From Streptomyces sp. ISL-66 (GTDB taxonomy: Bacteria > Actinomycetota > Actinomycetes > Streptomycetales > Streptomycetaceae), in NCBI RefSeq assembly GCF_018614135.1, contig NZ_JAGGOW010000031.1, positions 1-64,000 on the forward strand: a stretch of DNA of 64,000 bases. Direction: 5' to 3'. A program made the translations under genes and the position numbers. Numbering within the stretch: position 1 is the first letter of the stretch; each line of letters opens with the position of its first letter. Of the stretch, positions 16,199 to 19,998 are shown piece after piece. Under the pieces are notes generated by a model. The model was not told the origin of the DNA, ran no database searches, and saw only the letters and a list, made by a program, of their open reading frames with translations.

Positions 16199-16271
16199 GG
16201 GGCTATAGCTCAGTTGGTAGAGCGCCTGCATGGCATGCAGGAGGTCTGGAGTTCAATTCTCCATAGCTCCA
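16199..16271 (+). tRNA. tRNA-Ala(GGC), copy 1
   Basis: A complete 73-nt cloverleaf without encoded CCA. The acceptor stem is GGGGCTA/TAGCTCC, the D-arm GCTC...GAGC, the anticodon stem CCTGC/GCAGG with loop ATGGCAT (anticodon GGC), the T-arm TGGAG-TTCAATT-CTCCA, and the discriminator is A. It is identical over all 73 bases to the copy at 16787. A terminator hairpin follows after five bases. Confidence 0.97.
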
Positions 16272-16276
16272 CAATC

Positions 16277-16308
16277 AAGATCCCGTCCCCAGTAGGGGGC
16301 GGGATCTT
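16277..16308 (+). terminator. Terminator of tRNA-Ala copy 1
   Basis: A 14-bp stem with one G-T wobble (AAGATCCCGTCCCC paired with its complement), loop AGTA, followed by a T-rich run (TTTGCTTTTG). A clear intrinsic terminator. Confidence 0.85.
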
Positions 16309-16786: not shown

Positions 16787-16859
16787 GGGGCTATAGCTCA
16801 GTTGGTAGAGCGCCTGCATGGCATGCAGGAGGTCTGGAGTTCAATTCTCCATAGCTCCA
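16787..16859 (+). tRNA. tRNA-Ala(GGC), copy 2
   Basis: Identical in all 73 bases to the tRNA at 16199-16271, with anticodon GGC. The two upstream flanks differ (GGCAAGGCAA here), so only the mature gene is duplicated. It is followed by its own terminator. Confidence 0.97.
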
Positions 16860-16865
16860 CAGTGA

Positions 16866-16900
16866 AGAAGCGGGCCACCCGGATCGGGTGGCCCGCTTCT
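16866..16900 (+). terminator. Terminator of tRNA-Ala copy 2
   Basis: A perfect 16-bp stem (AGAAGCGGGCCACCCG and its complement) with loop GAT, directly after the tRNA. Confidence 0.85.
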
Positions 16901-16970
16901 CGTTGTGCGCCGCCCGTCGCGGGCCGGAAGGGCAGAGCACCCCTAGGGGCCGCTGCGGTACCCTGACGCC

Positions 16971-17009
16971 ATGCGTGCCGTACGCCTCCTGCTTACCGAG
17001 CCGCGCTGA
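16971..17009 (+). CDS. leuS leader peptide with three consecutive Leu codons
   Basis: A 12-codon open frame, [12 protein letters not shown], ending in TGA. The three leucines use CTC, CTG and CTT in a row at 16986-16994. A TACCCT -10-like box at 16959-16964 places the start of transcription at or next to the ATG, so the leader may be leaderless. It lies 115 bases upstream of leuS and 41 bases before an intrinsic terminator, the layout of a ribosome-stalling attenuator. Confidence 0.7.
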
Positions 17010-17074
17010 AGAGCACCGACCCCACGAGACGGTCGGCCTCGGCGCGGCGCCCCCTCCTGTGCGAGGGGTTTTTT
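16971..17074 (+). promoter_or_regulatory. Candidate leucine attenuator of leuS
   Basis: The order is leader peptide (16971-17009), hairpin CCGACC/GGTCGG (17016-17021 and 17031-17036), then a terminator with stem CCCCTC/GAGGGG (17051-17068) followed by six Ts (17069-17074). Stalling at the Leu codons when charged tRNA-Leu is scarce would be expected to change the folding and allow read-through into leuS. No T-box sequence is present. I could not define a convincing antiterminator by eye, so the switching mechanism is inferred. Confidence 0.65.
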
Positions 17075-17124
17075 CGTTTGGGCAGGCAGAGACGGCAGAG
17101 ACGATCGATGGAGCTTCAGAAATC

Positions 17125-19998
17125 ATGAGCGAGACGAACACCCCGGCCCCCGAGGCGGCCGAGGCGCACCGCTACACGGCTGCCATGGCCGCCGACATCG
17201 AGGCACGCTGGCAGGACTTCTGGGACGCCCAGGGCACCTACGAGGCGCCGAACCCGACCGGCGACCTGGCCGGCGACCCGGCGGTCGTGGCGAGGCCCAA
17301 GAAGTTCATCATGGACATGTTCCCGTTCCCCTCGGGCGCGGGCCTGCACGTCGGCCACCCGCTGGGGTACATCGCCACCGACGTCTTCGCCCGCCACCAG
17401 CGGATGACCGGCCACAACGTCCTGCACACCCTGGGCTTCGACGCCTTCGGCCTGCCGGCCGAGCAGTACGCCGTGCAGACCGGCATGCACCCGCGCGTCT
17501 CGACCGAGGCGAACATCGCGAACATGAAGGTCCAGCTGCGCCGGCTGGGCCTGGGCCACGACAACCGCCGCTCGGTCGCCACGATCGACACGGAGTACTA
17601 CAAGTGGACCCAGTGGATCTTCCTGCAGATCTACAACTCCTGGTACGACGTGGAGGCGAAGACGGCCCGCCCGATCGCCGAGCTGGTCGCCGCCTTCGAG
17701 AACGGCACCCGTGAGCTGCCCGGTGGCGCTTCCTGGGCCGCGCTGAGCGCCGGCGAGCGGGCCGACGTGCTGAACGAGTACCGGCTGGCGTACTCCTCGG
17801 ACGCGCCCGTCAACTGGTGCCCCGGGCTGGGCACCGTACTGGCCAACGAGGAAGTCACCGCCGACGGCCGCTCCGAGCGGGGCAACTTCCCCGTCTTCAA
17901 GTCCAAGCTGAGCCAGTGGAACATGCGGATCACGGCCTACGCCGACCGCCTGCTGGACGACCTGGACGCGCTGGACTGGCCCGAGGCCATCAAGCTGCAG
18001 CAGCGCAACTGGATCGGGCGCAGCGAGGGCGCGCGCGTCGACTTCCCGGTCGGCGACGGCGACGCCATCACCGTCTTCACCACCCGCCCCGACACGCTGT
18101 TCGGCGCCACCTACATGGTGCTGGCGCCCGAGCACGAGCTGGTCGGGAAGATCGTCCCGACCGAGTGGCCCGAGGGCACCCGCCAGGTGTGGACCGGCGG
18201 CGCCGCAACCCCCGCCGATGCCGTGGACGCGTACCGCAAGCAGGCCGCGTCGAAGTCGGACGTCGAGCGGCAGGCCGAGGCCAAGGACAAGACCGGCGTC
18301 TTCACCGGCGCGTTCGCGACCAACCCGGTCAGCGGCGAGCGGGTTCCGGTCTTCATCGCGGACTACGTGCTGATGGGCTACGGCACCGGCGCGATCATGG
18401 CCGTCCCGGCGCACGACTCCCGCGACTTCGCGTTCGCGCGCGCCTTCGAGCTGCCGATGCGCTGCGTCGTGCAGCCCTCGGACGACCGCGACGCCGACCC
18501 GGCCGAGTGGGACGACGCGTTCGCCTCGTACGACGCCGCGATCGTCAACTCCACCGGTGAGGGCATCTCGCTGGACGGCCTGGGCGTGGTCGAGGCCAAG
18601 GCGGCGATCACCGACTGGCTGACCGAGCGGGGCATCGGCGAGGGGACCGTCAACTTCCGGCTGCGCGACTGGCTGTTCAGCCGCCAGCGCTACTGGGGCG
18701 AACCCTTCCCGATCGTCTACGACGAGGACGGCGTCGCGCACGCGCTGCCCGAGTCGATGCTGCCGCTGGAACTGCCGGAGGTCGAGGACTACTCGCCGCG
18801 CACCTTCGAGCCGGACGACGCGACCTCCCAGCCGGAGACCCCGCTGTCGCGCAAGGCCGACTGGGTCAACGTCGAACTGGACCTGGGCCGAGGCGAGGGC
18901 GTCAAGCGCTACCGGCGCGAGACCAACACCATGCCGAACTGGGCCGGTTCCTGCTGGTACCAGCTGCGCTACCTGGACCCCACCAACTCCGAGGCGCTGG
19001 TCGACCCGGCGATCGAGCAGTACTGGATGGGCCCCAGCGAGAGCCAGCCGCACGGCGGCGTCGACCTGTACGTGGGCGGCGCCGAGCACGCGGTGCTGCA
19101 CCTGCTGTACGCGCGCTTCTGGACGAAGGTCCTGTTCGACCTGGGTCACGTCTCCTCGGTGGAGCCGTACCACAAGCTGTACAACCAGGGCATGATCCAG
19201 GCATACGTCTACCGTGACGAGCGCGGCTTCCCCGTCCCCGCGACCGAGGTCGAGGAGCGCGACGGCCGGTTCTTCTTCGAGGGCGAGCCGGTCAAGCGCG
19301 AGCTGGGCAAGATGGGCAAGTCCCTGAAGAACGCCGTCACGCCGGACGAGATCTGCGAGGAGTACGGCGCGGACACCCTGCGCCTGTACGAGATGGCGAT
19401 GGGCCCGCTGGACGTCTCGCGTCCGTGGGACACCCGCGCCGTCGTCGGCCAGTACCGGCTGCTGCAGCGCCTGTGGCGCAACGTGGTGGACGAGGAGACG
19501 GGCGCCGTGACGGTGGTCGACTCGGAGCCGGGCACGGACACCCTGCGCGCGCTGCACAAGGCGATCGACGGGGCCGGCTCCGACATGGCCGCGCTGCGCT
19601 TCAACACCGCCATCGCGAAGATCACCGAGCTGAACAACACCCTGACGAAGGCGGGGCGCCCGCTGGAGCGCTCGGTCGCGGAGCGGCTGGTGCTGCTGGT
19701 CGCCCCGCTGGCTCCGCACGTCGCGGAGGAGCTGTGGCAGCGCCTGGGTCACACCGACTCGGTCGTCTTCCAGGACTTCCCGGTCGCGGACCCGGCGTAC
19801 GTCGTGGACGAGAGCGTCACCTGCGTCGTCCAGATCAAGGGCAAGGTCAAGGCCCGTCTGGAGGTGTCTCCGACGATCTCCGACGCCGACCTGGAGCAGC
19901 TGGCGCTGGGCGACGAGGCGGTCGTGGCGGCGCTGGGCGGGGCCGAGATCCGCAAGGTGATCGTGCGCGCGCCGAAGCTGGTGAACATCGTCGTCTGA
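17125..19998 (+). CDS. leuS: Leucyl-tRNA synthetase
   Basis: Class I synthetase that charges tRNA-Leu. 957 residues from ATG 17125. The HIGH motif is [15 protein letters not shown] (about residue 75) and the KMSKS motif is [10 protein letters not shown] (about 730). The CP1 editing domain contains the [19 protein letters not shown] motif and the [20 protein letters not shown] segment needed for clearing misacylated tRNA. The C-terminal end [11 protein letters not shown]...[13 protein letters not shown] is the usual tRNA-binding tail. The frame is open 79 codons upstream through the leader and attenuator, which is not coding. Expression is probably controlled by that leader. Confidence 0.98.

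Follow-up and report, generated by a model that had tools for sequence, protein, structure and literature searches.

A probable leader-peptide attenuator of leuS with a near-invariant rare leucine codon recurs across families of actinobacteria

Introduction

The leader attenuators of trp, his and leu in E. coli are built from tandem cognate codons, a hairpin between segments 1 and 2 (1:2), and a terminator. In trp, the cognate codons lie inside segment 1, and the pairing of segments 2 and 3 (2:3) excludes the terminator. For the control of leucyl-tRNA synthetase, Firmicutes mostly use T-boxes. The closest described systems precede leuS itself in Streptomyces. Seliverstov et al. (2005), in their passages on this gene, report 'classical candidate attenuators' before leuS in S. 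avermitilis and S. coelicolor (PMC1262725). The 2021 reannotation of S. lividans TK24, in the part of its text that concerns leuS, places leuL2 (SLIV_24828), which is leaderless and has a hairpin and a U stretch after it, in front of this gene (PMC8079986). In its passages on other genes, the 2005 paper describes the LEU element found before leuA in Actinobacteria, a pseudoknot that pairs with the Shine-Dalgarno box of leuA and lacks a typical terminator. It also relates that altering the candidate codons in front of ilvB was without effect in S. coelicolor, and that changes in the leuA leader do not fit classical attenuation (PMC1262725).

A preliminary description of the locus studied here, made from its DNA letters, had held that leader-peptide attenuation is described less often for a synthetase than for biosynthetic operons. 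Since it has already been published for Streptomyces, in the passages of PMC1262725 and PMC8079986 just mentioned, the leuS attenuator is less unusual than that description had it: it is already described in this genus, and its comparative breadth is what we add. The wide reach of the element and its fixed rare codon are not stated in the open-licence literature we searched, where we also found no leucine-limitation or starvation data for the leuS leader; Lopatovskaya et al. 2010 (Mol Biol 44:128) may report a wider distribution for leuS. A Term-seq paper on S. clavuligerus counts, in its main text, 37 premature units from earlier studies, citing Lopatovskaya (PMC8269248); the terms 'tRNA synthetase' and 'leader peptide' are absent from that main text, and the accompanying data set may include leuS. 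A term search of the available text of PMC4833913, PMC3848588 and PMC10272879 found leuS unnamed.

Results

The leader region of leuS in Streptomyces sp. ISL-66

We analysed a stretch of 64,000 nucleotides from Streptomyces sp. ISL-66 (contig NZ_JAGGOW010000031.1, positions 1 to 64,000), hereafter the window. The features at and upstream of leuS are the following.

16959..16964, + strand: candidate -10 box TACCCT, 6 nt 5' of the leader ATG
16971..17009, + strand: leader ORF of 12 codons, MRAVRLLL(S/T)EPR-type, ATG at 16971 and stop codon TGA at 17007-17009, by direct reading
16986..16994, + strand: Leu codons CTC CTG CTT, the CTT at 16992-16994 being 5 nt before region 1
17000..17009, + strand: region 1, GCCGCGCTGA, comprising the final leader codons and the stop; 5' arm of hairpin 1:2
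17016..17036, + strand: inner hairpin CCGACC/GGTCGG, helix of 17016-17021 with 17031-17036
17039..17048, + strand: region 2, TCGGCGCGGC, 3' arm of hairpin 1:2
17051..17074, + strand: intrinsic terminator CCCCTC-CTGTGC-GAGGGG-TTTTTT, stem-loop 17051-17068 and six T at 17069-17074
17058-17059, + strand: TG of the terminator loop, with a possible alternative role as pause signal 10 nt past hairpin 1:2
17059..17064, + strand: candidate region 3, GTGCGA, possible antiterminator partner of 17039-17045
17110-17113, + strand: GGAG, 5' of leuS
17125..19998, + strand: leuS, leucyl-tRNA synthetase of 957 aa, ATG at 17125 (NCBIfam TIGR00396 leuS_bact, E 8e-268)

A ten-base pairing is possible between regions 1 and 2, enclosing the inner hairpin, and the terminator begins two bases past region 2. 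On rereading, the 12-codon leader, the CTC CTG CTT run, the hairpins and the CCCCTC/GAGGGG stem with its six T before leuS agreed base for base with the preliminary description. Its statement that no T-box is present also holds: two tRNAs were the only matches at gathering level when the whole window was searched with Rfam, and none of the three sub-threshold sRNA matches between 16900 and 17130 (Rfam models, E up to 5) was a T-box. The leader element itself matched no Rfam family at gathering, so its model could be added to that database.

The case from the window sequence alone is modest. Terminator-like sites number 4 in 2 kb, where shuffles average 1.2 (sd 1.3), and the folding energy has z = -1.13 (25 of 200 shuffles were equally or more stable). 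The doubt left by these one-sequence statistics is removed by the conservation of the leader and terminator in relatives. Folding the window also gave a hairpin at the start of the leader, GCGUG/UACGC, which we dropped because it is lost, as judged by eye, in several other genera.

Two tRNA-Ala (GGC) genes lie 5' of leuS, at 16199-16272 and 16787-16860, about 590 bases apart. The first is followed by a hairpin with a T-rich tail (16277-16308), the second by a long hairpin (~16867-16899) that has no T-run and was not scored terminator-like. The terminator before leuS might thus merely end the transcripts of the second tRNA gene, the leader ORF being a chance frame. We regard this as extremely improbable, because the leader, the -10 box and the stems are conserved across the order and beyond.

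Distribution of the element

LeuS gave a match in all 249 genomes of the family. We picked 90 family loci by leuS alone (30 returned by the LeuS search and 60 chosen by hand among the matches listed, with 249 genomes searched), a choice that lets close relatives dominate the set, and all 90 carry the leader and the terminator (89 by pattern and one, L075, by eye). A covariance model built from 51 of these loci (alignment A1) matched every one of 119 sampled genomes of the order, 104 from the genus itself and 15 from two other families. Searching the ISL-66 genome with the model showed no convincing second copy (next best E 0.34).

In a sample of the class, the model gave a match at E up to 0.01 in 105 of 256 genomes; the genus itself accounts for 23. 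Outside the genus, 80 of 85 places were fetched, and five weak class matches (G482, G368, G278, G450, G496) were left out; leuS stands in the same locus in 74 of these 80. The six without it comprise a contig end at L191 and five leaders of other genes (L201, L204-L207). Alignment A3 gathers 89 leuS-linked copies from the order and the class, representing 23 families besides that of the window; L191, L201, L204-L207 and L124-L126 were excluded because leuS was not seen downstream. An antisense match (L119:430-477) is one row of A3 in the covariation count and was removed before the codon, -10, folding and permutation counts. Since A1 trained the model that recovered the A3 copies, these are somewhat biased toward the CTT, the -10 box and the stems, and all counts below ignore the kinship of the sequences, which are related rather than independent. 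In a phylum sample, 7 of 119 genomes matched at E up to 0.001, and the lone match outside the class is G575:C81:33856-33958 (E 1e-10).

We also scanned a collection of named genomes for an exact pattern, CTGCTCCTTA followed 2-7 nt on by GCCGCGCTGA. This returned at least 120 stretches, of which 80 loci were analysed: 76 match the covariance model and 71 lie upstream of leuS, where 112-305 nt separate the pattern from the first LeuS residue in the alignment. The genera among these 71 include Amycolatopsis, Actinokineospora, Jiangella, Kitasatospora, Streptacidiphilus, Actinospica and Kineosporia, which identifies the class as Actinomycetes.

The leader element is patchy across the class. Among 20 of the 151 model-negative class genomes, such a leader was absent in 17, as judged by the model, applied with E up to 1, and by a script that sought runs of at least three Leu codons and would miss shorter ones. 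One of the 20, L348, does have the leader and had been missed by the stricter filters of the genome scan. At another (L347:696-802), a terminator before leuS matches the model weakly (E 0.036) and there is no run of three Leu codons; this locus is ambiguous, possibly a degenerate leader. The last, L335, was left unjudged, since LeuS is matched there from residue 534 on. Rfam searches of the 19 loci other than L335 returned one tRNA and nothing else.

Two diverged leuS genes, each preceded by the leader, occur in G455 (L130, L173) and in the Actinophytocola MAG Dino_bin25 (L212, L249), which may be a mixed assembly. Among the A3 copies, 36 of 89 precede a LeuS less than 50% identical to that of the window over the N-terminal match. 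The presence of the leader before diverged leuS genes may reflect gene replacement under a kept leader or joint transfer.

Related leaders matched by the model

The model also reached leaders of other genes, which we named from translations. It matched weakly the leaders before ilvB at L124, L125 (both of MRTRILVLG type) and L206, and the Leu-run leaders before leuA at L126 (E 0.006) and L207 (E 2e-4). Both kinds are already described in actinobacteria. Two Ile/Val-rich leaders of family f19, MPSQVIIIVRRAG at L204 (G492) and MSSRAIIIVRRVG at L205 (G453), are followed by a hairpin and a terminator and precede a citramalate-synthase-like gene. The gene fragment at L204 has TIGR00977 as its best match (E 1e-43, 149 bits, under the whole-protein cut-off of 450), and we propose these leaders as a candidate attenuator of that gene. 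Finally, a Leu-rich leader at L201 (G419), MRTVLLLLSGRDETSF, precedes a leuC-like gene, whose fragment matches the 3-isopropylmalate dehydratase large subunit (NF004016, E 8e-58).

A rare leucine codon at a fixed position

Every one of the 140 aligned copies (51 of A1 and 89 of A3) has a Leu codon exactly 5 nt upstream of region 1. It is CTT in 135 of them, i.e., in 51/51 copies of A1 and 84/89 of A3 (the others being 4 CTC and 1 CTG), so that CTT or CTC occupies the position in 139 of 140 copies. Outside the family of the window, 22 of the 23 families have at least one copy with CTT there. The codon is rare elsewhere: the N-terminal leuS segments of the A3 loci contain 959 Leu codons, of which 7 are CTT and 818 CTG, and none of the 76 Leu codons of the window's leuS is CTT. 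We take both CUU and CUC to be decoded by the tRNA-Leu with anticodon GAG. A Leu run, two to four codons long, ends with the fixed codon in 138 of 140 copies. One variant leader, MASQQQRLIGPR at L174 (G340), has a run of Gln and a single Leu codon, a CTT at the fixed position, with the stems kept.

The stop codon starts at base 8 of region 1 in 51/51 copies of A1 and 71/89 of A3; in the rest of A3, it overlaps the first base of region 1 (13/89) or comes 13-25 nt after the start of region 1 (5/89). The position of the stop thus drifts relative to the stem, whereas the spacing between CUU and stem is constant.

The rarity of CUU admits another reading, in which a leaderless upstream ORF and a partial terminator sense the general state of translation or growth through slow decoding of this codon, and not leucine itself. 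The lack of effect of codon changes upstream of S. coelicolor ilvB, reported in the passages of PMC1262725 cited above, would agree with it. A general sensor would nevertheless have no need of Leu codons, and the neighbouring codons are also Leu in 138 of 140 copies; the gene downstream is that of the cognate synthetase in 74 of the 80 fetched class matches. We therefore think a general sensor unlikely and a sensor of leucyl-tRNA the better reading.

In 51/51 copies of A1 and 88/89 of A3, the motif TAnnnT precedes an in-frame start of the leader by 6-7 nt, the exception being cut by a contig end; the bases of this -10 box belong to the model that found the A3 copies. At shifted positions, the motif occurs in 3 of 556 cases, a control that is imperfectly matched since more than one start and gaps of 4-9 were permitted in the real search. 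With a -10 box 6 nt before the ATG, transcription is expected to begin at the start codon or right beside it, giving a leaderless RNA. This spacing agrees with the leaderless start published for S. lividans, as given in the leuS part of PMC8079986.

Covariation of the stems

Hairpin 1:2 and the terminator both covary. In A3, 98.0% of the cells of helix 1 are paired and 5 of its 10 pairs have changed on both sides; in the terminator, 99.8% of cells are paired, with double changes in 4 of 6 pairs. Overall, in 89 distinct rows of which one is the spurious antisense match, 98.6% of cells pair and 52 show double changes, compared with 9.7 in shuffles (none of 500 reaches 52) and 1-5 in slid controls; the alignment was fitted to the model, which somewhat favours the structure. 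Within the family (A1), the same two stems show one double change, because they are nearly invariant there. In the family, the inner hairpin has double changes in 5 of 6 pairs (18 cells against 5.5 in shuffles); it is absent from several other genera. The preliminary description had proposed comparing the sequences upstream of leuS in relatives, and this comparison bears it out, with the Leu codons conserved and both stems covarying.

A doubtful antiterminator

The antiterminator is the weak link of the scheme, a doubtful step that neither covariation nor folding energies support. In A1, 96.1% of cells pair between region 2 and GUGCGA, without double changes; 35 of 500 shuffles reach this percentage, and a slide of +2 still gives 82.4%. 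In a permutation test on the 97 distinct sequences among the 140, region 2 paired with the terminator loop at -9.29 kcal/mol, compared with -9.18 kcal/mol when permuted (0.21 of permutations as good), and 0.20 of permutations were as good for region 1 with the loop. Hairpin 1:2 and the terminator, used as positive controls, were equalled by 0 of 300 permutations. When region 1 was masked, structures without the terminator were worse by a median of 12-15 kcal/mol (minimum 9.2), and the median probability of the terminator was 0.99-1.0. With CUU in the A site, this probability fell below 0.5 in 2/51 copies of A1 and 4/89 of A3, the same counts as without masking; with CUU in the P site, it did so in 7/51 and 5/89.

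Because an antiterminator shows no covariation and the terminator is favoured, the alternative pairing would have to act briefly during transcription, unless the decision is kinetic. A kinetic account dispenses with a true antiterminator. RNA polymerase would be held by hairpin 1:2 at a conserved TG about 10 nt downstream, and its encounter with the terminator would depend on a slow ribosome having opened 1:2 or not. In hairpin-stabilised pauses, about 10-12 nt separate the hairpin from the 3' end of the RNA. The loop of the terminator contains TG in 51/51 copies of A1 and 84/89 of A3, with the T mostly 10-12 nt after hairpin 1:2, a count to be read against the kinship of the sequences and the TG expected by chance in such a loop. 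The absence of a covarying antiterminator and the preference for the terminator in the masked states fit this account as well, but the 2:3 pairing seen in A1 would explain the TG equally. We consider a purely kinetic decision possible, if doubtful.

Discussion

These results make it probable that the element is a ribosome-mediated transcription attenuator of leuS. A leader-peptide attenuator, as first proposed for this locus, remains the best reading, given the conservation of the Leu codons and of both stems and the failure of the Rfam searches to find a T-box in the window. From the sequences, we infer translation of the leader, ribosome stalling, the direction of control, the antiterminator step and the response to leucine. 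Transcription would begin at the leader ATG, so that the ribosome loads on a leaderless end. With plenty of charged tRNA-Leu, the ribosome would complete the leader and leave, region 1 would pair with region 2, the terminator hairpin would form, and most transcripts would end at about 17074. Under a shortage of charged tRNA-Leu, the ribosome would stall with the CUU (16992) in its A site. A ribosome extends about 12-13 nt beyond the first base of the A site; a stalled one would cover roughly the first five bases of region 1 and weaken the 1:2 stem. RNA polymerase may then pass the terminator into leuS, which would be up at low charged tRNA-Leu. Several observations speak against this scheme, namely the energetic preference for the terminator with region 1 masked, the lack of covariation between region 2 and the terminator loop, the ilvB and leuA results given in PMC1262725, and the patchy distribution of the element.

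More speculatively, the switch may read the charging of a single isoacceptor, tRNA-Leu(GAG), through the rare CUU or CUC fixed 5 nt before the stem, be old and widespread in actinobacteria, and work kinetically without a stable antiterminator; we put this forward as a tentative combination. The near-invariant rare codon at a fixed spacing offers a sharp and cheap handle on which tRNA is sensed. Without a conserved antiterminator, how the stem and the terminator alone decide becomes the question.

The element is closest to the leuS attenuators of Seliverstov et al., which, in the passages concerned, involve the same gene and the same plan of a Leu-codon leader ORF with antiterminator and terminator hairpins (PMC1262725). 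Those passages refer to 'some Streptomyces', whereas the present copies come from 23 further families and show no covariation in support of an antiterminator. LeuL2 of S. lividans, as listed in the leuS part of the reannotation, differs from the window's leader by one residue (S to T), and both, with the leaderless start predicted for the window, have the plan of a leaderless ORF, a hairpin and a U-run before leuS (PMC8079986). The LEU element of leuA, in the passages that describe it, likewise has a Leu-run leader in the same bacteria (PMC1262725).

With the E. coli trp, his and leu attenuators, the element of the window shares the tandem cognate codons, the 1:2 hairpin and the terminator. 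It differs from trp in that the codons stop 5 nt short of segment 1 and that no stable antiterminator is evident, and from all three in that the controlled gene is a synthetase. Its breadth points to ribosome stalling as the means by which many actinobacteria control leucyl-tRNA synthetase, in contrast with the T-boxes found mostly in Firmicutes.
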